In this document: in pieces, positions 13,701 to 58,241 of the stretch
Numbering within the stretch: the first letter of the stretch is position 1
Layout: the number at the start of each line of letters is the position of its first letter
NCBI GenBank assembly: GCA_963971535.1
Contig: OZ020591.1
Location: 13,237,577-13,301,576, forward strand
Direction of reading: 5' to 3'
Source: Notolepis coatsorum
Lineage: Eukaryota > Chordata > Actinopteri > Aulopiformes > Paralepididae
Length of the DNA: 64,000 nt
Program-made: the position numbers and the translations under genes
The notes under the pieces: generated by a model
Seen by the model: only the letters and a program-made list of their open reading frames with translations
Told to the model about the DNA's origin: nothing
Database searches by the model: none

Positions 13701-15971
<2,271 letters not shown>

Positions 15972-16026
15972 AATGTCAAACTTACTACTTTTGCATTTTG
16001 CCAGAGCCCTCACCACTTGAGGTAGC

Positions 16027-16740
16027 ATGAGGCGGTGTCTGCAACCCACAGAAGGTGCTCAGGTAGTGCAGCTCATCCAGGAAGGCACATCAATGCGCGC
16101 TGTGGCAAGAAGGTTTGCTGTGTCTCCCAGCACAGTGTCAAGAGCATGGAGGAGATACCAGGAGACAGGCCAGTACACCAGGAGACGTGGAGGGGGCCGT
16201 AGGAGGACAACAACCCAGCAGCAGGACCGCTATCTGGTCCTTTGTGCAAGGAGGAACAGGAGGAGCACTGCCAGAGCCCTACAAAACCACCTCCAGCAGG
16301 CCACCAATGTGCATGTTTCTGCTCAAACTGTGAGAAGCGGACTCCATGAGGTTGGTATCAGGGCCCGACGGCCACAAGTGGGGCCTCTGCTCACAGCCCA
16401 ACACCGTGCAGCCAGATTGGCATTTGCCAGAGAACACCAGGATTGGCAGATTCGCCATTGGCATCCTGTGCTCTTCACGGATGAGAGCAGGTTCACACTG
16501 AGCACATGTGACAGACGTGACAGTCTGGAGACGCCGTGGAGAACGTAATGCTGCCTGCAACATCCTCCAGCATGACCGGTTTGGCGGTGGGTCAGTGATG
16601 GTCTGGGGAGGCATATCCCTGGAGGGCCGCACAGACCTCCATGTGCTAGCCAGAGGTACCATGACTGCCATTAGGTACCGGGATGAGATGTCAGGCCATA
16701 TGCTGGTGCAGTGGGCCCTGGGTTCCTTCTCATGCATGAC
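16027..16740 (+). pseudogene. Tc1-like transposase, N-terminal part
   Basis: It begins '[17 protein letters not shown]'. A helix-turn-helix DNA-binding region spans residues 10-60 ('[20 protein letters not shown]'), followed by a basic 'RRRGGGRRR' hook and a second HTH. The first catalytic aspartate is in 'VLFTDESRF'. A two-base loss near 16524 shifts the frame, after which 'FGGGSVMVWGGISLEGRTDL' follows. The coding sequence is then cut by the insertion at 16740. It is inactive. Confidence 0.85.
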
Positions 16741-16990
16741 AAAAAAAAGATAACTCGAAAACTAGATGAAAATATAGTACTGACCATAGATGGAGTTGAT
16801 ATAGAGAGTTAATGAATTTCGTTTTCTTGGTGTGATTATGGATGATAAATTAACATGGAAATCGCACATAGCACACGTTAAAAAAAATATGTCCAAGAGT
16901 ATTTTTGTTATGAATAAAGTAAAGGATGTGTTAGAGTATGAGGCAATGAGAACACTCTACTGTTCACTCATCTCACCTTATATCAGTTAG

Positions 16991-17735
16991 TTTCAACTCA
17001 AGTTCAAGTTTCTTTAATAGTTGTCATACAGAAGTACAGAATACTTTTATACAAAATGCTTCTACTGTTACGCTCCAGAGACTGTGCTAGACAAGATAAG
17101 TATGAAATAAAATAGTATAGCATGTAATAGAAGTAAAAATAGAAGTCACAGTGTTCAGTATAGTCATATGTACAATGTTCGATGCAGAATAGAAGTAACT
17201 GAGTTACCATACAATATACTATGCAATGTACTAATATACAATACTATATAGTGCAAAGCAGAAATGGTGATCTAAAGTGTGGAGAGTGGGTGCTGCAGTG
17301 TGTTGTTTGTTTAAAGTGAGTGTGCGTGTGTGGATGTGTGTGCTGTGTGCATTTGATGGTTGTTGCATAGTGTTTATTGTTCGTTGAGCAGCCTGATGGC
17401 CTGGGGATAGAAGCTTCTTCTGAGTCTCTCTGTGCTCGCCATGAGACTCCGGTATCGCTTACCTGACCGCAGCAGTTCAAAGAGGCAGTTGTTTGGGTGG
17501 CTGGAGTCCTTGATGATTCTCTTAGCCTTACCCCTGCACCGCTTGTTGTAAATGTTCTGGAGGGTGGGAAGCCCCCCTCCAATTGTGCGTTCGGCTGAAC
17601 GTGCCTTTCTCTGTAGTCTGCTACGGTCTTGTGCGGTGCTATTCCCAAACCAGGAGGTGATATTGCCAGTCAGGATGCTCTCTATTGTACATGAGTAGAA
17701 GTTCTTAAGGATCTTCTGGCTGACTTGGAACTTCC
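16991..17735 (-). mobile_element. LINE A copy 2, 5'-truncated
   Basis: It shares the tandem 3' tail ('ctcaagttcaagtttcttt'), 3' UTR and C-terminal coding sequence of the LINE at 7033-10531, including the reverse complement of the 'LFELL' region, with several substitutions. It breaks off at 17735, where LINE B sequence resumes at 'tatgaagtatggg'. It is dead on arrival, as 5'-truncated LINEs are. Confidence 0.85.
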
Positions 17736-18971
17736 TTAAGTATGAAGTATGGGGGAATACTTATGGGACCAACATAAAACCATTATATATACTACAGAAG
17801 AGGGCTGTAAGAATCACACATAAAATGAGTTATCGATAACACACAAATACATTATTTATTAAATCTAGAATAAGACATGGTTAAGTTTCAAACAATGTTA
17901 ATTATGTTTAGGGCAAGAAATAATACACTGCCAGAAAAACTACAAAATCTTTTTCATTTAGAAAGTGAGTTTAGTAGGAGAAAATACTATTTTAAACATC
18001 AGTTTGCACGTACCACACTTAAACAGATGTGTCCTTCAGTTATTGGTGTAAAGTTGTGGAATTCTCTCCATAGCGAGCTTAAGGGATGTAATAGTGTTTA
18101 TCAATAATTTAAAAAAAAACAAAGAAATATATTTAGTCAGTATGAAAATCAAATGTGATCTGAATAGTGAGATCTTTTTTTTCCCTCTTTTATTCTTTAT
18201 TATTATTATTATTATTATAAAATGTTTTCTTGTTTAACACTATGATCGCCGGGAACGAGTTTTCACGTCATTCCGAGCCATGCTCATTCTGCCGAAGACG
18301 CCGTAACTTGTCTTTGATGTCAATATTTCAAAAATCTGTCATCGAAATCATATTTCCTTTCCGGAGCCCTGAGACACACTGCTGATCTCCTCTCAACTCT
18401 CTAGCGGTTCAAGAGCGCCATCTGGTGGCCAATCGGCAGATCGCCAACCGGATATTAACCTTTGAACCGGTAGTACTTATCCAAATGTGGTCTGGCCACT
18501 CGCTATAGCTCTCGCGACTCCATCTTGAAACACTGGATAATAGATCGCTCGCCCTAACTCAATAAACAACGTTATTTGGACGTATATACTATTATACAAC
18601 CTGGAAATGGATCGGGCATTTCTACATCCCATAATAGAAAAAAATATGTTCCACGCTCATCTGCCAGCGGCGTGAGGAAGCCACGGTAAGATTCAGCGTT
18701 ATTTTCTAACGTATTCTATACTAACTGATGTGATGAACATATGACCCACTCTGGATGAATCATCTAACGCTGCCCACGGAATTATAAACGATCCCCCGCC
18801 CATCCGGTCATCATCAGATGATGCGTAGAAACTTCTAGAACCACGTCCAGTTGAAACTTTATCTCGCACAGATTCCTACCAAACTGTATTTGATCATCAA
18901 TATAATGCATTTAGGGCTATAAATCACGTTCTGAAGAAAGCTGCAGAAAACGATAAAAACATACTTTAGAC

Positions 18972-19467
18972 CAGTGTTTCTCAACTGGTGGGTCGCGACC
19001 CAAAAGTGGGTCGCGGGGCCATTTTGAGTGGGTCGCGGAAGTGTGTGAAAAAAAAAATCCCTTTTTTTTTCCCTCACTACCTATCTTTGTGAAAGTGGCT
19101 TCTCAGCTCTGGTCCAGCTGAAGACAAAGCGGAGGAACAGATTGGACATTGAGCATGACCTCAGAGTTGCTTTGTCTACCATCACCCCAGACTTTGAGAC
19201 TCTTGTCAGGAGCAAACATCATCCCCAGTTATCCCATTAGTTCCCTGCATGTTAAGGTAAGAAATCTGCTAAGAATAGCATATTATTTATTATTATTTTA
19301 TTTCATTGGGTTTTAGCCCTAGTTGCACTTTTGTTGCAACCTCAGTTATCCCATTAGTTCCCCCAAATTTAGGTCTGTTATGTTAAGCTAAGAAATCTGC
19401 TAAGAAGCATATATTATTTATTAATCTTTTATTTCATTGGGTTTTTAGCAATAGTTGCACTTTTGTT
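18972..19467 (+). mobile_element. hAT left part, amplified copy 1
   Basis: It begins 'cagtgtttctcaactgg' with the 'gggtcgcgg' repeats of the complete copy at 27897-28538. It includes a C-terminal transposase remnant ('LCESGFSALVQLKTKRRNRL') ending at 19240. It is cut off at 'cttttgtt', where the minisatellite begins. Equivalent copies start at 22174 and 24687. Confidence 0.85.
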
Positions 19468-19468
19468 A

Positions 19469-21034
19469 CACCAGGTCCTCTTCCTCTGAGGTGGTGTCTT
19501 GGTTCTGTTGGTCCTCTGACACCAGGTCCTCTTCCTCTGAGGTGGTGTCTTGGTTCTGTTGGTCCTCTGACACCAGGTCCTCTTCCTCTGAGGTGGTGTC
19601 TTGGTTCTGTTGGTCCTCTGACACCAGGTCCTCTTCCTCTGAGGTGGTGTCTTGGTTCTGTTGGTCCTCTGACACCAGGTCCTCTTCCTCTGAGGTGGTG
19701 TCTTGGTTCTGTTGGTCCTCTGACACCAGGTCCTCTTCCTCTGAGGTGGTGTCTTGGTTCTGTTGGTCCTCTGACACCAGGTCCTCTTCCTCTGAGGTGG
19801 TGTCTTGGTTCTGTTGGTCCTCTGACACCAGGTCCTCTTCCTCTGAGGTGGTGTCTTGGTTCTGTTGCTCCTCTGACACCAGGTCCTCTTCCTCTGAGGT
19901 GGTGTCTTGGTTCTGTTGGTCCTCTGACACCAGGTCCTCTTCCTCTGAGGTGGTGTCTTGGTTCTGTTGGTCCTCTGACACCAGGTCCTCTTCCTCTGAG
20001 GTGGTGTCTTGGTTCTGTTGGTCCTCTGACACCAGGTCCTCTTCCTCTGAGGTGGTGTCTTGGTTCTGTTGCTCCTCTGACACCAGGTCCTCTTCCTCTG
20101 AGGTGGTGTCTTGGTTCTGTTGGTCCTCTGACACCAGGTCCTCTTCCTCTGAGGTGGTGTCTTGGTTCTGTTGGTCCTCTGACACCAGGTCCTCTTCCTC
20201 TGAGGTGGTGTCTTGGTTCTGTTGCTCCTCTGACACCAGGTCCTCTTCCTCTGAGGTGGTGTCTTGGTTCTGTTGGTCCTCTGACACCAGGTCCTCTTCC
20301 TCTGAGGTGGTGTCTTGGTTCTGTTGGTCCTCTGACACCAGGTCCTCTTCCTCTGAGGTGGTGTCTTGGTTCTGTTGCTCCTCTGACACCAGGTCCTCTT
20401 CCTCTGAGGTGGTGTCTTGGTTCTGTTGGTCCTCTGACACCAGGTCCTCTTCCTCTGAGGTGGTGTCTTGGTTCTGTTGGTCCTCTGACACCAGGTCCTC
20501 TTCCTCTGAGGTGGTGTCTTGGTTCTGTTGGTCCTCTGACACCAGGTCCTCTTCCTCTGAGGTGGTGTCTTGGTTCTGTTGCTCCTCTGACACCAGGTCC
20601 TCTTCCTCTGAGGTGGTGTCTTGGTTCTGTTGGTCCTCTGACACCAGGTCCTCTTCCTCTGAGGTGGTGTCTTGGTTCTGTTGGTCCTCTGACACCAGGT
20701 CCTCTTCCTCTGAGGTGGTGTCTTGGTTCTGTTGGTCCTCTGACACCAGGTCCTCTTCCTCTGAGGTGGTGTCTTGGTTCTGTTGGTCCTCTGACACCAG
20801 GTCCTCTTCCTCTGAGGTGGTGTCTTGGTTCTGTTGGTCCTCTGACACCAGCTCCTCTTCCTCTGAGGTTGTGTCTTGGTTCTGTTGGTCCTCTGACACC
20901 AGGTCCTCTTCCTCTGAGGTGGTGTCTTGGTTCTGTTGGTCCTCTGACACCAGGTCCTCTTCCTCTGAGGTGGTGTCTTGGTTCTGTTGCTCCTCTGACA
21001 CCAGGGTCTCTTCCTCTGAGGTGGTGTCTTGGTT
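19469..21034. repeat. 51-bp minisatellite array 1, about 30.7 copies
   Basis: The unit is 51 bp, starting 'caccaggtcctcttcctctg'. Because 51 is divisible by three and the unit lacks stops in most frames, long frames run through on both strands. They are not genes. A 'gttggtcc'/'gttgctcc' variant marks some units. Towards the minus-strand end one unit has 'agctcctct' and the last has a 'gggtctc' change. Confidence 0.97.
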
Positions 21035-22690
21035 CGATAACACACAAATACATTATTTATTAAATCTAGAATAAGACATGGTTAAGTTTCAAACAATGTT
21101 AATTATGTTTAGGGCAAGAAATAATACACTGCCAGAAAAACTACAAAATCTTTTTCATTTAGAAAGTGAGTTTAGTAGGAGAAAATACTATTTTAAACAT
21201 CAGTTTGCACGTACCACACTTAAACAGATGTGTCCTTCAGTTATTGGTGTAAAGTTGTGGAATTCTCTCCATAGCGAGCTTAAGGGATGTAATAGTGTTT
21301 ATCAATCATTTAAAAAAAAACTAAAAGAAATATATTTAGTCGGTATGAAAATCAAATGTGATCTGAATAGTGAGATCTTTTTTTTCCCTCTTTTATTCTT
21401 TATTATTATTATTATTATAAAATGTTTTCTTGTTTAACACTATGATCGCCGGGAACGAGTTTTCACGTCATTCCGAGCCATGCTCATTCTGCCGAAGACG
21501 CCGTAACTTGTCTTTGATGTCAATATTTCAAAAATCTTTCATCGAAATCATATTTCCTTTCCGGAGCCCTGAGACACACTGCTGATCTCCTCTCAACTCT
21601 CTAGCGGTTCAAGAGCGCCATCTGGTGGCCAATCGGCAGATCGCCAACCGGATATTAACCTTTGAACCGGTAGTACTTATCCAAATGTGGTCTGGCCACT
21701 CGCTATAGCTCTCGCGACTCCATCTTGAAACACTGGATAATAGATCGCTCGCCCTAACTCAATAAACAACGTTATTTGGACGTATATACTATTATACAAC
21801 CTGGAAATGGATCGGGCATTTCTACATCCCATAATAGAAAAAAATATGTTCCACGCTCATCTGCCAGCGGCGTGAGGAAGCCACGGTAAGATTCAGCGTT
21901 ATTTTCTAACGTATTCTATACTAACTGATGTGATGAACATATGACCCACTCTGGATGAATCATCTAACGCTGCCCACGGAATTATAAACGATCCCCCGCC
22001 CATCCGGTCATCATCAGATGATGCGTAGAAACTTCTAGAACCACGTCCAGTTGAAACTTTTTATCTCGCACAGATTCCTACCAAACTGTATTTGATCATC
22101 AATATAATGCATTTAGGGCTTTAAATCACGTTCTGAAGAAAGCTGCAGAAAACGATAAAAACATACTTTAGACCAGTGTTTCTCAACTGGTGGGTCGCGA
22201 CCCAAAAGTGGGTCCCGACCCAAAAGTGGGTCGCGGGGCCATTTTGAGTGGGTCGCGGAAGTGTGTGAAAAAAAAAAAATCCCTTTTTTTTCCCCTCACT
22301 ACCTATCTTTGTGAAAGTGGCTTCTCAGCTCTGGTCCAGCTGAAGACAAAGCGGAGGAACAGATTGGACATTGAGCATGACCTCAGAGTTGCTTTGTCTA
22401 CCATCACCCCAGACTTTGAGACTCTTGTCAGGAGCAAACATCATCCCCAGTTATCCCATTAGTTCCCTGCATGTTAAGGTAAGAAATCTGCTAAGAATAG
22501 CATATTATTTATTATTATTTTATTTCATTGGGTTTTAGCCCTAGTTGCACTTTTGTTGCAACCTCAGTTATCCCATTAGTTCCCCCAAATTTAGGTCTGT
22601 TATGTTAAGCTAAGAAATCTGCTAAGAAGCATATATTATTTATTAATCTTTTATTTCATTGGGTTTTTAGCAATAGTTGCACTTTTGTTA
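21035..22690 (+). repeat. Macrosatellite unit 2, non-minisatellite part
   Basis: LINE B C-terminal sequence (21078-21340), the TTA-rich tract, the left part of the piggyBac element from 21438 and the left part of the hAT from 22174. A small extra copy of 'gtgggtc..gacccaaaa' is present in the hAT terminus here. Confidence 0.9.
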
Positions 22691-23542
22691 CACCAGGTCC
22701 TCTTCCTCTGAGGTGGTGTCTTGGTTCTGTTGGTCCTCTGACACCAGGTCCTCTTCCTCTGAGGTGGTGTCTTGGTTCTGTTGGTCCTCTGACACCAGGT
22801 CCTCTTCCTCTGAGGTGGTGTCTTGGTTCTGTTGGTCCTCTGACACCAGGTCCTCTTCCTCTGAGGTGGTGTCTTGGTTCTGTTGGTCCTCTGACACCAG
22901 GTCCTCTTCCTCTGAGGTGGTGTCTTGGTTCTGTTGGTCCTCTGACACCAGGTCCTCTTCCTCTGAGGTGGTGTCTTGGTTCTGTTGGTCCTCTGACACC
23001 AGGTCCTCTTCCTCTGAGGTGGTGTCTTGGTTCTGTTGGTCCTCTGACACCAGGTCCTCTTCCTCTGAGGTGGTGTCTTGGTTCTGTTGCTCCTCTGACA
23101 CCAGGTCCTCTTCCTCTGAGGTGGTGTCTTGGTTCTGTTGGTCCTCTGACACCAGGTCCTCTTCCTCTGAGGTGGTGTCTTGGTTCTGTTGGTCCTCTGA
23201 CACCAGGTCCTCTTCCTCTGAGGTGGTGTCTTGGTTCTGTTGGTCCTCTGACACCAGGTCCTCTTCCTCTGAGGTGGTGTCTTGGTTCTGTTGGTCCTCT
23301 GACACCAGGTCCTCTTCCTCTGAGGTGGTGTCTTGGTTCTGTTGGTCCTCTGACACCAGCTCCTCTTCCTCTGAGGTCGTGTCTTGGTTCTGTTGGTCCT
23401 CTGACACCAGGTCCTCTTCCTCTGAGGTGGTGTCTTGGTTCTGTTGGTCCTCTGACACCAGGTCCTCTTCCTCTGAGGTGGTGTCTTGGTTCTGTTGCTC
23501 CTCTGACACCAGGTTCTCTTCCTCTGAGGTGGTGTCTTGGTT
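22691..23542. repeat. 51-bp minisatellite array 2, about 16.7 copies
   Basis: Same unit as array 1. It is shorter by 714 bp, exactly 14 units. First and last units share the same diagnostic variants as arrays 1 and 3, so the ends correspond and the interior was contracted or expanded. Confidence 0.97.
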
Positions 23543-25186
23543 CGATAACACACAAATACATTATTTATTAAATCTAGAATAAGACATGGTTAAGTTTCAA
23601 ACAATGTTAATTATGTTTAGGGCAAGAAATAATACACTGCCAGAAAACTACAAAATCTTTTTCATTTAGAAAGTGAGTTTAGTAGGAGAAAATACTATTT
23701 TAAACATCAGTTTGCACGTACCACACTTAAACAGATGTGTCCTTCAGTTATTGGTGTAAAGTTGTGGAATTCTCTCCATAGCGAGCTTAAGGGATGTAAT
23801 AGTGTTTATCAATCATTTAAAAAAAAACTAAAAGAAATATATTTAGTCGGTATGAAAATCAAATGTGATCTGAATAGTGAGATCTTTTTTTTCCCTCTTT
23901 TATTCTTTATTATTATTATTATTATTATTATAAAATGTTTTCTTGTTTAACACTATGATCGCCGGGAACGAGTTTTCACGTCATTCCGAGCCATGCTCAT
24001 TCTGCCGAAGACGCCGTAACTTGTCTTTGATGTCAATATTTCAAAAATCTGTCATCGAAATCATATTTCCTTTCCGGAGCCCTGAGACACACTGCTGATC
24101 TCCTCTCAACTCTCTAGCGGTTCAAGAGCGCCATCTGGTGGCCAATCGGCAGATCGCCAACCGGATATTAACCTTTGAACCGGTAGTACTTATCCAAATG
24201 TGGTCTGGCCACTCGCTATAGCTCTCGCGACTCCATCTTGAAACACTGGATAATAGATCGCTCGCCCTAACTCAATAAACAACGTTATTTGGACGTATAT
24301 ACTATTATACAACCTGGAAATGGATCGGGCATTTCTACATCCCATAATAGAAAAAAATATGTTCCACGCTCATCTGCCAGCGGCGTGAGGAAGCCACGGT
24401 AAGATTCAGCGTTATTTTCTAACGTATTCTATACTAACTGATGTGATGAACATATGACCCACTCTGGATGAATCATCTAACGCTGCCCACGGAATTATAA
24501 ACGATCCCCCGCCCATCCGGTCATCATCAGATGATGCGTAGAAACTTCTAGAACCACGTCCAGTTGAAACTTTTTATCTCGCACAGATTCCTACCAAACT
24601 GTATTTGATCATCAATATAATGCATTTAGGGCTTTAAATCACGTTCTGAAGAAAGCTGCAGAAAACGATAAAAACATACTTTAGACCAGTGTTTCTCAAC
24701 TGGTGGGTCGCGACCCAAAAGTGGGTCGCGGGGCCATTTTGAGTGGGTCGCGGAAGTGTGTGAAAAAAAAAAAAATCCCTTTTTTTCCCCCTCACTACCT
24801 ATCTTTGTGAAAGTGGCTTCTCAGCTCTGGTCCAGCTGAAGACAAAGCGGAGGAACAGATTGGACATTGAGCATGACCTCAGAGTTGCTTTGTCTACCAT
24901 CACCCCAGACTTTGAGACTCTTGTCAGGAGCAAACATCATCCCCAGTTATCCCATTAGTTCCCTGCATGTTAAGCTAAGAAATCTGCTAAGAATAGCATA
25001 TTATTTATTATTATTTTATTTCATTGGGTTTTAGCCCTAGTTGCACTTTTGTTGCAACCTCAGTTATCCCATTAGTTCCCCCAAATTTAGGTCTGTTATG
25101 TTAAGCTAAGAAATCTGCTAAGAAGCATATATTATTTATTAATCTTTTATTTCATTGGGTTTTTAGCAATAGTTGCACTTTTGTTA
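23543..25186 (+). repeat. Macrosatellite unit 3, non-minisatellite part
   Basis: Same order as unit 2: LINE B tail, piggyBac left part from 23951, hAT left part from 24687. One A is lost in the LINE B segment near 23646 ('ccagaaaactac'), which breaks the frame seen in the other units. Confidence 0.9.
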
Positions 25187-26753
25187 CACCAGGTCCTCTT
25201 CCTCTGAGGTGGTGTCTTGGTTCTGTTGGTCCTCTGACACCAGGTCCTCTTCCTCTGAGGTGGTGTCTTGGTTCTGTTGGTCCTCTGACACCAGGTCCTC
25301 TTCCTCTGAGGTGGTGTCTTGGTTCTGTTGGTCCTCTGACACCAGGTCCTCTTCCTCTGAGGTGGTGTCTTGGTTCTGTTGGTCCTCTGACACCAGGTCC
25401 TCTTCCTCTGAGGTGGTGTCTTGGTTCTGTTGGTCCTCTGACACCAGGTCCTCTTCCTCTGAGGTGGTGTCTTGGTTCTGTTGGTCCTCTGACACCAGGT
25501 CCTCTTCCTCTGAGGTGGTGTCTTGGTTCTGTTGCTCCTCTGACACCAGGTCCTCTTCCTCTGAGGTGGTGTCTTGGTTCTGTTGGTCCTCTGACACCAG
25601 GTCCTCTTCCTCTGAGGTGGTGTCTTGGTTCTGTTGGTCCTCTGACACCAGGTCCTCTTCCTCTGAGGTGGTGTCTTGGTTCTGTTGGTCCTCTGACACC
25701 AGGTCCTCTTCCTCTGAGGTGGTGTCTTGGTTCTGTTGCTCCTCTGACACCAGGTCCTCTTCCTCTGAGGTGGTGTCTTGGTTCTGTTGGTCCTCTGACA
25801 CCAGGTCCTCTTCCTCTGAGGTGGTGTCTTTGTTCTGTTGGTCCTCTGACACCAGGTCCTCTTCCTCTGAGGTGGTGTCTTGGTTCTGTTGCTCCTCTGA
25901 CACCAGGTCCTCTTCCTCTGAGGTGGTGTCTTGGTTCTGTTGGTCCTCTGACACCAGGTCCTCTTCCTCTGAGGTGGTGTCTTGGTTCTGTTGGTCCTCT
26001 GACATCAGGTCCTCTTCCTCTGAGGTGGTGTCTTGGTTCTGTTGGTCCTCTGACACCAGCTCCTCTTCCTCTGAGGTGGTGTCTTGGTTCTGTTGGTCCT
26101 CTGACACCAGGTCCTCTTCCTCTGAGGTGGTGTCTTGGTTCTGTTGGTCCTCTGACACCAGGTCCTCTTCCTCTGAGGTGGTGTCTTGGTTCTGTTGCTC
26201 CTCTGACACCAGGTCCTCTTCCTCTGAGGTGGTGTCTTGGTTCTGTTGGTCCTCTGACACCAGGTCCTCTTCCTCTGAGGTGGTGTCTTGGTTCTGTTGG
26301 TCCTCTGACACCAGGTCCTCTTCCTCTGAGGTGGTGTCTTGGTTCTGTTGGTCCTCTGACACCAGGTCCTCTTCCTCTGAGGTGGTGTCTTGGTTCTGTT
26401 GCTCCTCTGACACCAGGTCCTCTTCCTCTGAGGTGGTGTCTTGGTTCTGTTGGTCCTCTGACACCAGGTCCTCTTCCTCTGAGGTGGTGTCTTGGTTCTG
26501 TTGGTCCTTCTGACACCAGGTCCTCTTCCTCTGAGGTGGTGTCTTGGTTCTGTTGGTCCTCTGACACCAGCTCCTCTTCCTCTGAGGTGGTGTCTTGGTT
26601 CTGTTGGTCCTCTGACACCAGGTCCTCTTCCTCTGAGGTGGTGTCTTGGTTCTGTTGGTCCTCTGACACCAGGTCCTCTTCCTCTGAGGTGGTGTCTTGG
26701 TTCTGTTGCTCCTCTGACACCAGGTTCTCTTCCTCTGAGGTGGTGTCTTGGTT
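25187..26753. repeat. 51-bp minisatellite array 3, about 30.7 copies
   Basis: Same unit as array 1 and same copy number, plus one inserted base near 26507 ('gtccttctg'). That base shifts every frame and explains why frames break here. Rare single-base variants ('tttgttctg', 'gacatcagg') distinguish units. Confidence 0.97.
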
Positions 26754-27896
26754 CGATAACACACAAATACATTATTTATTAAATCTAGAATAAGACATGG
26801 TTAAGTTTCAAACAATGTTAATTATGTTTAGGGCAAGAAATAATACACTGCCAGAAAAACTACAAAATCTTTTTCATTTAGAAAGTGAGTTTAGTAGGAG
26901 AAAATACTATTTTAAACATCAGTTTGCACGTACCACACTTAAACAGATGTGTCCTTCAGTTATTGGTGTAAAGTTGTGGAATTCTCTCCATAGCGAGCTT
27001 AAGGGATGTAATAGTGTTTATCAATCATTTAAAAAAAAAACGAAAAGAAATATATTTAGTCGGTATGAAAATCAAATGTGATCTGAATAGTGAGATCTTT
27101 TTTTTCCCTCTTTTATTCTTTATTATTATTATTATTATTATAAAATGTTTTCTTGTTTAACACTATGATCGCCGGGAACGAGTTTTCACGTCATTCCGAG
27201 CCATGCTCATTCTGCCGAAGACGCCGTAACTTGTCTTTGATGTCAATATTTCAAAAATCTGTCATCGAAATCATATTTCCTTTCCGGAGCCCTGAGACAC
27301 ACTGCTGATCTCCTCTCAACTCTCTAGCGGTTCAAGAGCGCCATCTGGTGGCCAATCGGCAGATCGCCAACCGGATATTAACCTTTGAACCGGTAGTACT
27401 TATCCAAATGTGGTCTGGCCACTCGCTATAGCTCTCGCGACTCCATCTTGAAACACTGGATAATAGATCGCTCGCCCTAACTCAATAAACAACGTTATTT
27501 GGACGTATATACTATTATACAACCTGGAAATGGATCGGGCATTTCTACATCCCATAATAGAAAAAAATATGTTCCACGCTCATCTGCCAGCGGCGTGAGG
27601 AAGCCACGGTAAGATTCAGCGTTATTTTCTAACGTATTCTATACTAACTGATGTGATGAACATATGACCCACTCTGGATGAATCATCTAACGCTGCCCAC
27701 GGAATTATAAACGATCCCCCGCCCATCCGGTCATCATCAGATGATGCGTAGAAACTTCTAGAACCACGTCCAGTTGAAACTTTTTATCTCGCACAGATTC
27801 CTACCAAACTGTATTTGATCATCAATATAATGCATTTAGGGCTATAAATCACGTTCTGAAGAAAGCTGCAGAAAACGATAAAAACATACTTTAGAC

Positions 27897-28538
27897 CAGT
27901 GTTTCTCAACTGGTGGGTCAAAAGTGGGTCGCGGGGCCATTTTGAGTGGGTCGCGGAAGTGTGTGAAAAAAAAAAAATCCCTTTTTTTTCCCCTCACTAC
28001 CTATCTTTGTGAAAGTGGCTTCTCAGCTCTGGTCCAGCTGAAGACAAAGCGGAGGAACAGATTGGACATTGAGCATGACCTCAGAGTTGCTTTGTCTACC
28101 ATCACCCCAGACTTTGAGACTCTTGTCAGGAGCAAACATCATCCCCAGTTATCCCATTAGTTCCCTGCATGTTAAGCTAAGAAATCTGCTAAGAATAGCA
28201 TATTATTTATTATTATTTTATTTCATTGGGTTTTAGCCCTAGTTGCACTTTTGTTGCAACCTCAGTTATCCCATTAGTTCCCCCAAATTTAGGTCTGTTA
28301 TGTTAAGCTAAGAAATCTGCTAAGAAGCATATATTATTTATTAATCTTTTATTTCATTGGGTTTTTTAGCAATAGTTGCACTTTTGTTGCACTTTTTTGT
28401 GTTTATTTCATGTTTTGAAAGATTGCGTATTACTGCATTTTTTTTTTACATAAATCATAGTGGTTAAAAATTTTGGGTCGCGACTTAATGACTAAGGAAA
28501 ATGTTGGGTCCCGAGGCTAGACCAGTTGAGAACCACTG
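27897..28538 (+). mobile_element. Complete copy of the amplified hAT
   Basis: The left end 'cagtgtttctcaactgg' and right end 'ccagttgagaaccactg' are inverted repeats. The 8-bp duplication 'ctttagac' is exact (27889-27896 and 28539-28546). It is 642 bp and retains only the last 50 or so residues of a transposase (to 28160). It is the uninterrupted original from which the truncated copies in units 1-3 derive. Confidence 0.9.
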
Positions 28539-28988
28539 CTTTAGACCATATTTTAGTATGAATATGTGAATGAAAAAGTTTAACGTTGCTACACCCTGAA
28601 CAATACATATAGGACATTGAATGGCCCATAATAATGGCAATGTAGCAATAGAATTTAAAAAGTTATAGCCCTGCAAAGAAGGGGAACTTCTCCATAGACA
28701 AATAGAGCTGGCGAGGGATGGTAAATTATGAATTTAACCCATGGCGATTAAAGTGTTAACTGTGGATTTTGTGTTTCTTGTATAATGGTATAAATTATTA
28801 TTTGTGTAAATTAGGTTGTACGCCGACCATTAAGTAAATACTTGTTTAGTTTAGGAATAAGGGGCAAGTAACTATAAGATTTATTCTTCTTCCTGCTCCT
28901 TTTGTCCATGGAATGATATTTATGATTGTGTAATGAAGAAACTCTGATTGTATGATTCCATGTGGAAAATAAAAACTCTGAACTGAAC

Positions 28989-29291
28989 AACGCTCGGCCT
29001 CATGTGGCTGGAGTGTGTCAGCAGTTCCTGCATGACGAAGGCATTGATGCTATGGACTGGCCTGCCCGTTCCCCAGACCTGAATCCAATCCAGCACCTCT
29101 GGGACATCATGTCTCGCTCCATCCACTGACGCCACGTCGCACCACAGACTGTCCAGGAGTTGACTGATGCCCTGATCCAGGTCTGGGAGGAGATCCCTCA
29201 GGAGAACATCCGTCGTCTCATCAGGAGCATGCCCAGACGTTGTAGGGAGTGCTTACAGGCACGTGGAGGCCACACACTACTGAGCCTCATT
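28989..29291 (+). pseudogene. Tc1-like transposase, C-terminal part
   Basis: It continues the transposase from 16740: 'NARPHVAGVCQQFL', then 'PARSPDLNPIQHLW'. The position of the third catalytic acid, in the usual Asn-Pro-Ile-Glu context, is Gln here (CAG at 29091-29093). A TGA lies at 29127-29129. The end reads 'GGHTLLSLI' and a stop at about 29290. The enzyme would be inactive even without the insertion. Confidence 0.85.
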
Positions 29292-29699
29292 TAGAATTGT
29301 CTTGATGAATTTCCACAGAAGTTGGATCAGCCTGTGATCTGAATTTTCCACTTTTAGTTCTGAATCCAGACCTGATTTTGATTTCCATTGATCATTCTTA
29401 TGTTATTTTGTTCTCAACGCATTCCACTATGTAATGAATAAAGATTTTCAACTGGAATATTTCATTCATCGAGATCTAGGATGTGTTGTTTAAGTAAGTA
29501 TTTATAAAGCACCTTTCATACATGTCATGTAGCTCAAAGTGCTGTACACAAACATAGGCATATATAACGATAAAAGCAATAAAGTCACAGTGATCAGTTA
29601 AGATCAATGTTTAAAAAAAAAAATAAAAATAACGTAAAAATGAAAACAGTCATTTGCGGACCAGTTTGGGAGAACAGGTCCGCACAAACATGTCCGTTC

Positions 29700-33251: not shown

Positions 33252-33906
33252 CTCTTTCAGTGCCACTCACGAGATTTCTCGGGTTTTTTATAGGTGGTTG
33301 CGTGCCACTCACGAGATTTCTCGGAATTATATTTTTTTTTTTTTTTTTTGCGATCTGAAAAATTATTGCATCACCCGAGCCTACCCGACTATAGCCGAGC
33401 TGCGCCGGTGATCACTGTGGAAAAAAGCGCCCCCTGTCGTCTCCCAGATGACATAAGTGATTTTGGAATGGATTCAATGAAAATTAATGGGGAAAAAAAA
33501 CGGTACTCCACATTTTCCAGTTCACTGATCCAGCCGGGGTTACCAGAGTTCATTCTGGAGCCTCAGAGCCCCGCGGATCATGGAGTTCTACTGTATCGCG
33601 TTGGATCCATACACGTATCGATTTTTTCGAATGGTGATCAGGAATTGGAATATACCAGTTGGATACCATCTGATGTCAGGTAAGGACTCTATGTTATCAG
33701 TGGTAGGATAATCGGAGTAAGTTTGATGAAGTTATAAGCTGTTTTGTGAAATGTCTTCTTTCGGTTTCACTGTAAAAGTCTGTGAGGAAATCAACGGAGC
33801 GATTATCAGTGCGCGGCCGTAATGTGCTTGCGTGCACGTATAATATTGATCATCTAGCGTTTATTTGAAAACGATTCATAAAAAGGCCGACGAATATCAA
33901 CGTTGT
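33252..33906 (+). mobile_element. piggyBac-type element, right-truncated
   Basis: TTAA at 33248-33251 is followed by 'ctctttcagtgccactcacg'. It matches, inverted, the complete element at 57304-58241 and stops at 33906, where LINE C 3' sequence begins. It carries an ORF-like segment ending at a splice-donor-like site (33472-33683). Confidence 0.75.
33472..33683 (+). CDS. Uncharacterised exon-like ORF in piggyBac-type element
   Basis: From the ATG at 33472 about 70 codons run to 'SDVR', where 'gatgtcag' is followed by 'gtaagg', a good splice-donor sequence. The partner copy on the minus strand at 57809-58018 keeps the same frame downstream with few changes ('STFSSSLIQPGL', 'HGVLLYRVGSIHVSIFSNGD'), but has a stop just after its ATG. 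I do not recognise the sequence. It may be the 5' exon of the element's own transposase gene or a captured host exon. No zinc finger, membrane segment or signal peptide is evident. Confidence 0.4.
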
Positions 33907-48835: not shown

Positions 48836-48965
48836 AGTAAGTAAGTAAGTAAGTAAGTATTTATAAAGCACCTTTCATACATGTCATGTAGCTCAAAGTG
48901 CTGTACACAATTATAGGCATATATAACGATAAAAGCAATAAAGTCATAGTGATCAGTTAAGATCA

Positions 48966-49275
48966 AAAACACGCCTTCAGCTCAGAAGCTGAGGCGTGTC
49001 AAAAAACTTTTGAAAAACTGGAGGCGTGTCTCCTATTGTACCCATTCCTTCATCTAAAAAGTTTGAAAGTTTGGGAGGTCCGCAAAAACACGCCTTCAGC
49101 TCAGAAGCTGAGGTGTGTCAAAAACGTTTGAAAAACTGGAGGCGTGTCTCCTATTGTACCCATTCCTTCATCTAAAAAGTTTGAAAGTTTGGGAGGTCCG
49201 CAAAAACACGCCTTCAGCTCAGAAGCTGAGGCGTGTCAAAACTTTTGAAAAACTGGAGGCGTGTCTCCTATGTAC
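48966..49275. repeat. 118-119-bp tandem repeat with hairpins in the L2 3' UTR
   Basis: About 2.6 copies, starting near 48967, 49086 and 49204. Each carries a hairpin 'acgccttcagctcagaagct' closing with 'gaggcgtgt', then 'aaaactggaggcgtgtctcc'. The other L2 copy has a different repeat in the same place. Confidence 0.85.
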
Positions 49276-49353
49276 CCGTTCCTTCATCTAAAAAGTTGGG
49301 TCCACAAGGCTTATCCTAGCCTCATGGATCCATCAGGTTTTTCCAAGCCATAA

Positions 49354-57303: not shown

Positions 57304-58241
57304 CACTTTCAGCGCCACGCCTGGTTTTCCGTTTTACCGCTTGAATGCCACCATCGGCGCCAATGTTAACGTTAATATCGCCTAATCTATGTTTTAAATT
57401 ATGGCTATGTGTCTAATCTGCCCATCGCATTATCAAAGACTATTTTCCAGTCAGTGCTGTGGAGGCAGATTGTTTTTTTATCGCGTCGTTGCCGTTTCAG
57501 AGCAGTTAGAAAAGCCCCCGTTTTGATATAAAAAACAGCTCATTCTGGAGCATTCTATGAAAATCGTCTTTTAGTGGAATATTCCACAACGTTGATATTC
57601 GTCTGCCTTTTTATGAATCGTTTTCAAATAAACGCTAGATGATCAATATTATACGTGCACGCACGCACATTACGGCCGCGCACTGATAATCGCTCCGTTG
57701 ATTTCCTCACGGACTTTTACAGTGAAACCGAAAGAAGACATTTCACAAAACAGCTTATAACTTCATCAAACTTACTCTGATTATCCTACCACTGATAACA
57801 TAGAGTCCTTACCTGACATCAGATGGTATCCAACTGGTATATTCCAATTCCTGATCACCATTCGAAAAAATCGATACGTGTATGGATCCAACGCGATACA
57901 GTAGAACTCCATGATCCGCGGGGATCTGAGGCTCCAGAATGAACTCTAGTAACCCCGGCTGGATCAGTGAACTGGAAAATGTGGAGTACCGGATTTTTTT
58001 CCCCATTCATTTCATTGAGTCCATTCCAAAATCACTTATGTCATCTGGGAGACGACAGGGGGCGCTTTTTTCCACAGTGATCGCCGGCGCCCCTCGGCTA
58101 TACTCGGGTAGGCTCGGGTGATGCAATAATTTTTCAGATCGCAAAAAAAAAAAAAAAAAAAAAAAAATCAGAGAAATCTCGTGAGTGGCATGCAACCACC
58201 TATAAAAAACCCGAGAAATCTCGTGAGTGGCACTGAAAGTG
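57304..58241 (-). mobile_element. Complete piggyBac-type element in the L1-type LINE
   Basis: TTAA at 57300-57303 and 58242-58245. The ends 'cactttcagcgccacgcc' and 'gagtggcactgaaagtg' are inverted repeats, with a second inner 'gaaatctcgtgagtggca' repeat. It is 938 bp. The partner copy is at 33252-33906. It carries the same exon-like ORF on the minus strand (57809-58006). Confidence 0.88.
57809..58006 (-). CDS. Uncharacterised exon-like ORF, second copy
   Basis: A 65-residue frame, 'KKIRYSTFSSSLIQPGLLEF' to 'WIPSDVR', followed by 'gtaagg' as in the plus-strand copy ending at 33683. Three or four residues differ between the copies. A TGA after the presumed original ATG (about 58018) leaves a later Met as start. 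Confidence 0.4.
   Translation of the reverse strand: MGKKIRYSTFSSSLIQPGLLEFILEPQIPADHGVLLYRVGSIHVSIFSNGDQELEYTSWIPSDVR

Follow-up and report, generated by a model that had tools for sequence, protein, structure and literature searches.

A stretch of 64,000 nucleotides of the Notolepis coatsorum genome (GenBank assembly GCA_963971535.1; contig OZ020591.1, here C23, positions 13237577-13301576), referred to as the window, contains a Tc1-like transposon interrupted by a nest of mobile elements. An initial annotation, made from the sequence, had described a five-layer nest of hAT, piggyBac, LINE (long interspersed nuclear element) and Tc1 elements, and had seen in it a natural stratigraphy of element activity. 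The results reported here support, with good confidence, a composite picture: the nest is real; most of its length is a four-copy tandem array whose joints appear to have been filled, by template switching, with a minisatellite derived from the tail of beta-tubulin; and its innermost step, the insertion of a hAT into a piggyBac-type element, took place at a hotspot, the 8-bp target CTTTAGAC. The assembly comprises 3.42 Gb in 4787 contigs, C23 accounting for 153 of its 3421 Mb.

The element hosting the hotspot has the ends of a piggyBac: TTAA borders the right end in all 34 rows and the left end in 10 of 11 (in L066 it is shifted by two bases), the termini, CACTATGATCGCC and CACTTTAATCGCC, are inverted, and the neighbours outside TTAA differ between copies. 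It looks non-autonomous. The sequences inserted into it are assigned to hAT by their termini, which begin with CAG (fixed by the search pattern in the sample of 40 sites described below), and by the 8-bp duplication, identical in 23 of 24 two-ended loci and different by one base in L036. For family 1 only (family numbers are those of this analysis), the domain Dimer_Tnp_hAT is weakly matched in the open reading frame (ORF) of array copy 2 (E 0.03; 14.6 bits against a cut-off of 21.4); the other families are recognised here by their termini. Within family-1 elements (L030-L048), a sequence of about 130 bp is repeated in tandem, a variable number of times.

Counted as exact patterns genome-wide, filled CTTTAGAC sites number 173, including the one in the window, and empty sites 4163, so that 4.0% of 4336 are filled; the ratio is rough, the two patterns being 27 and 28 places long with 22 in common. 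The same patterns read backwards gave 0 matches. Six of the empty copies, in the same orientation and spaced by 135-137 kb, lie at C1:7301671-7979545, which suggests a large tandem segmental duplication. A control position in the piggyBac-type element, also fitting the hAT consensus nTnnnnAn, gave 0 filled sites, the intact copies of that stretch not having been counted.

The identity of the inserted elements was followed in two ways. Among the 19 best non-window matches (L030-L048) of the 40 in one locus search, the last five of which are outside the sample, a family-1 hAT is found at the identical base in 14 loci by BLAST on both sides and in L046 by motif; the remaining four show one side only, or a different arrangement. 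In 15 further matches of that search that begin inside a hAT end, and whose filled state is thus partly selected (L061-L075), as well as in L078, the same base is occupied by other hAT kinds or by reversed copies of family 1; nine of these 15 are seen from both sides. In all, both hAT ends are flush with the CTTTAGAC site in 24 loci. From the 100 filled sites listed, among 173 counted, forty were also sampled: the 20 that head the list for C1, and 20 not previously retrieved on C4, C6 and C7. Of these, L097 is the same locus as L039, and two (L100, L101) are same-orientation hAT-end/hotspot junctions only 69 bp apart, at C1:114030135 and 114030204. Their termini form 20 clusters, a number which may be low, as single-linkage clustering joined L103 and L135 to family 1 despite their resemblance to another family; 36 of the 40 have CAA at positions 11-13. 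Since each family can show two ends, the 20 clusters indicate that CTTTAGAC has been filled, in either orientation, by hATs of some ten or more families. The hAT-in-piggyBac step is therefore not random: the same 8 bp have been entered by many hAT kinds in other copies.

Sequence variants of the target, CATTAGAC, CCTTAGAC and CTCTAGAC, are found duplicated at the two ends of the hAT (L040, L044, L046-L048), the outcome to be expected if hATs had entered variant hosts separately. Distances measured on the host part (pB3) and on the hAT are uncorrelated (r 0.04, over 153 non-independent pairs): compared with the window, L040 differs by 11% in the host part and by 0.7% in the hAT end, L039 by 1.9% and 8%, respectively. 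This led to the rejection of one composite element that spread as such. A hairpin at the hotspot was also discarded, as its folding is not exceptional (z -0.40; 62 of 200 shuffled sequences fold equally well).

The target consensus of the Hermes hAT is reported as nTnnnnAn, some sites being preferred in vitro (PMC2803484), with T favoured at position 2 and A at 7 (PMC8721813), and that of TcBuster as nnnTAnnn (PMC3499496). CTTTAGAC, with T at 2, A at 7 and TA at 4-5, fits both. The hotspot would work because both consensuses are satisfied in a suitable context, and the more than 4000 copies of CTTTAGAC provided by the host element would contribute to it; the double fit accounts for permissiveness, not for the excess over another fitting position.

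The tandem array extends from 17834 to 28388, with a 51-bp minisatellite at each of its three joints; extra copies and their minisatellite blocks make up 8920 of the 12248 bases between the Tc1 halves. The unit, of about 1.63-1.64 kb, begins at CGATAAC in LINE B, takes in the TTAA at which the piggyBac-type element starts, as well as the hAT start, and ends inside the hAT after CTTTTGTT. Beyond this point only copy 4 continues, through the remainder of the hAT and the end of piggyBac to LINE B and Tc1: as a consequence, the 5' parts of piggyBac and hAT are present four times, their 3' ends once. The copies are 0.2-0.4% apart (3-6 substitutions per 1627-1636 aligned bases, plus 4-7 insertions or deletions), and the array is a recent amplification. 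All three joints are identical on both sides, CTTTTGTT being joined to ACACCAGG and GGTTC to GATAAC, while the maps of variant minisatellite units differ. That the 51-bp blocks of the window might be coding was considered and rejected: 51 being a multiple of 3, long ORFs arise on both strands and in several frames.

The source of the minisatellite was sought by one genome search, with a 153-base query, very common words being skipped; all 12 candidates were scored. Full-identity matches are found only on C23, in four clusters, at 11.7732-11.7825, 13.26 (the window), 45.456-45.459 and 82.632 Mb; that three further arrays should all fall on C23 by chance may be put at about 1e-4. Five weaker matches, of 52-118 bp, lie on C1 (three), C46 and C21. 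Four of them, those on C1 and C46, are C-terminal exons of beta-tubulin, with 85-88% identity across 52 bp (E 1.8e-9 for the DNA match): the C1:71.00 Mb exon is identified as beta-tubulin by comparison with solved structures (E 7.6e-31), and the other three align with it. The fifth, at C21:25.189 Mb (L056:2242-2649), is a fragment of a beta-tubulin tail that contains four complete tail repeats of 22 residues each, along with a stop codon; it is a second, separate expansion of a tubulin tail.

The minisatellite unit translates as DLVSEDQQNQDTTSEEE, compared with DLVSEYQQYQDATAEEE in beta-tubulin. The 11.78-Mb array abuts a frameshifted, broken beta-tubulin relic (E about 2e-10, residues 303-347), and its edge unit retains the tubulin tyrosine; searched as protein, this unit gave 32 matches, all 32 of them beta-tubulin from about residue 416, with a best E of only 0.034. 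The alignment of both DNA and protein to the tail, along with the relic beside one array, indicates that the beta-tubulin C-terminal tail gave rise to the minisatellite, the 11.78-Mb array being its probable birthplace. We conclude that it was then copied to three other places on C23, one of them the tandem-duplication joint described here. The founder array is itself split by a 4.5-kb long terminal repeat (LTR) element (C23:11773928-11778436, L049/L050), flanked by a 5-bp GTGGT duplication.

Template switching to a tubulin-tail array in the course of the tandem duplication is the most likely mechanism. A replication fork, broken or stalled within the hAT, would have started the process; its end would have moved to a tubulin-tail array, possibly the one lying about 1.5 Mb off, copied repeats there, and returned to LINE B upstream, by microhomology-mediated template switching. 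Unequal exchange may afterwards have increased the number of units.

Other origins of the array may be considered. That the minisatellite had been inserted into the hAT before the duplication, or that the chimaeric unit was an extrachromosomal circle that re-entered the chromosome, is rather unlikely: a circle would give the hAT-minisatellite-LINE B order invariably seen at the joints, but the hAT of copy 4 and LINE B of copy 1 are unbroken at the joint positions, so that no circle is needed and no trace of a simple insertion is present. An assembly artefact, a mis-join or the false expansion of one copy into four, appears improbable. Near-identical tandem units with minisatellites are classic sites of assembly error, and the array is known from a single assembly; yet each copy carries private substitutions or indels (for instance, 18 bp are duplicated in copy 2, about 7 bases are missing from copy 4, and copy 1 shows losses of 2 bp), and the minisatellite blocks are unlike in length or in variant order. 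As to the filler, it is very hard to believe that the 51-bp unit belongs to some other gene, as an acidic coding repeat that only resembles the tubulin tail: the one-unit residue match is indeed short and acidic, with the weak E found for the tail alone, but the DNA match to the beta-tubulin exons and the relic adjoining the 11.78-Mb array stand against such a coincidence.

The hotspot, in turn, might be a mirage, created by a few piggyBac-hAT composites spread by piggyBac transposition. Filled copies do occur at different TTAA sites, so that composites may move, and some sampled termini are identical across 50 bp; the number of terminus clusters, the two orientations, the target variants duplicated on both sides and the uncorrelated host and hAT distances make this explanation improbable as well.

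A number of observations weigh against the picture of a hotspot and of an array made by template switching. The control consists of a single position. In a less selected survey, covering 20 of 21 non-window matches (L076-L095, one weak match being excluded), one site out of 20 is filled (L078); three young-type copies (L076, L079 and L077, the last with a changed site) and all 11 older-type ones (L080, L082-L087, L089, L091, L093, L094) are empty, while five (L081, L088, L090, L092, L095) were not classified. The 173 filled sites do not equal 173 insertions, since a hAT already present in the piggyBac-type element may travel with it when it moves; moreover, the filled pattern demanded CMCTG, a CAG start by choice, and is blind to other end forms and fillers of the site. 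For the array, microhomology at the joints is only about 2 bp between minisatellite and LINE B and 0-3 bp between hAT and minisatellite, template switching was not observed as such, variant minisatellite units point to no particular donor array, and the copy number comes from one assembly.

With these reservations, a hotspot and a template-switched array remain the preferred reading, and they change the meaning of the nest. As initially annotated, the Tc1 coding sequence is interrupted after CATGAC (16740) and taken up again at AACGCT (28989); its assignment to Tc1 agrees with the presence of a Tc3-type helix-turn-helix (HTH_Tnp_Tc3_2) and of a DDE domain (DDE_3). The two halves are contiguous at the break point in all seven other loci examined (L002-L008, from a search that scored 40 matches): the empty site, looked for within this genome, exists, and the LINE B insertion step is thereby confirmed. 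The target duplication of LINE B, read from the borders, is at most 4 bp (ACAA). LINE A and B keep the name given by the initial annotation and are presumably such elements by resemblance; in Pfam scans their remnants (60-134 residues, short C-terminal parts only) gave neither a reverse transcriptase nor any other notable match. Relatives of LINE A are 83-95% identical across 100-290 bp at other loci. The zinc-finger exon is present beside the nest, as described; an identical exon/Tc1 junction is found at C23:14.32 Mb (L005) and 15.49 Mb (L004), so that the pair seems older than the locus. The insertion of Tc1 next to the exon probably took place elsewhere than here: exon and Tc1 resemble a unit that was duplicated after the insertion.

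The TTAA borders and the 8-bp hAT duplication are also as annotated (Table 1). The depth is four rather than five, hAT lying in piggyBac type, LINE B and Tc1, with LINE A as a second insert in LINE B. The order of insertion can be read from the borders for Tc1, LINE B and the piggyBac-type element, but not for the arrival of the hAT before or after the entry of piggyBac into LINE B, since filled copies with other TTAA neighbours exist elsewhere. The stratigraphy does not hold, because the array dominates the length, its filler is tubulin-derived, and the innermost step, being at a hotspot, reflects a landing pad as much as a succession of layers.

Table 1. Features of the nest and of the adjoining exon, in window coordinates
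Feature	Position	Strand	Evidence and remarks
C2H2 zinc-finger exon	13739..15970	+	long ORF 13739-15526, then frameshifted tail; Pfam zf-C2H2, 20 stretches
Tc1-like transposase, left half	15988..16740	+	HTH_Tnp_Tc3_2 E 5.2e-24; break at CATGAC
LINE B, 5'-truncated, first piece	16741..16996	+	sequence; Tc1 border; boundary with LINE A approximate
LINE A fragment within LINE B	16997..17747	-	relatives elsewhere in genome; borders approximate
Tandem unit copy 1	17834..19467	+	LINE B 3' coding part; piggyBac-type start 18238; hAT start 18972; ends in hAT past CTTTTGTT
51-bp minisatellite block A	19468..21034	.	30.7 copies; beta-tubulin tail repeat on minus strand
Tandem unit copy 2	21035..22689	+	repeat comparison
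51-bp minisatellite block B	22690..23542	.	16.7 copies
Tandem unit copy 3	23543..25185	+	repeat comparison
51-bp minisatellite block C	25186..26753	.	30.7 copies
Tandem unit copy 4	26754..28388	+	sole copy continuing into hAT 3' end
piggyBac-type non-autonomous element, hAT inside	27161..28755	+	TTAA at each side (27157-27160, 28756-28759)
Hotspot target CTTTAGAC, left duplicate	27889..27896	+	hAT 8-bp duplication
hAT family 1, non-autonomous, transposase C-terminal remnant	27897..28538	+	termini, 8-bp duplication; weak Dimer_Tnp_hAT
Hotspot target CTTTAGAC, right duplicate	28539..28546	+	hAT 8-bp duplication
LINE B 3' end	28756..28988	+	sequence
Tc1-like transposase, right half and 3' part	28989..29485	+	DDE_3 E 6.7e-7 (right half alone)

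Two further repeats were found in the window: a 580-nt inverted repeat (33327-33906 and 57586-58165, 96% complementary, 23.7 kb apart), and a 118-bp tandem repeat at 48964-49297 (2.8 copies, 96% matches).

A wider reading may be advanced, although only tentatively: the piggyBac-type element, a miniature inverted-repeat transposable element (MITE) with more than 4000 exact copies, would carry, in one 8-bp site, a universal landing pad, chosen independently by about ten or more hAT families, and would be a genome-wide sink which absorbs hATs and seeds rearrangement, here a tandem array with a tubulin-tail minisatellite that spreads within one chromosome. A natural target available in thousands of copies and filled by many hAT families is a ready experiment on target recognition beyond a short consensus; it also cautions that the order of nesting may be a matter of target choice. 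The minisatellite from the tubulin tail offers a single-chromosome case of coding DNA that became a satellite and came to fill duplication joints.

Among the titles and abstract openings of the literature searched, neither a hAT hotspot in a piggyBac element nor a tubulin-tail minisatellite was found. Minisatellites derived from coding sequences and filler DNA at duplication joints are known, and share with the present case a short unit in tandem and foreign sequence at a rearrangement joint; here the unit derives from the beta-tubulin C-terminal tail, and the filler lies in a transposon-derived tandem array. Hermes and TcBuster targets resemble the hotspot in consensus fit and in the 8-bp duplication, but the passages describing them concern single transposases, while here many hAT families use one base of one repeat. 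For nested plant LTR elements, a regional insertion preference within the host element is reported (PMC6911290): the likeness lies in the insertion of one element into another at non-random host positions; the preference described there is regional, whereas in the present case many hAT kinds share one 8-bp site within a DNA transposon.

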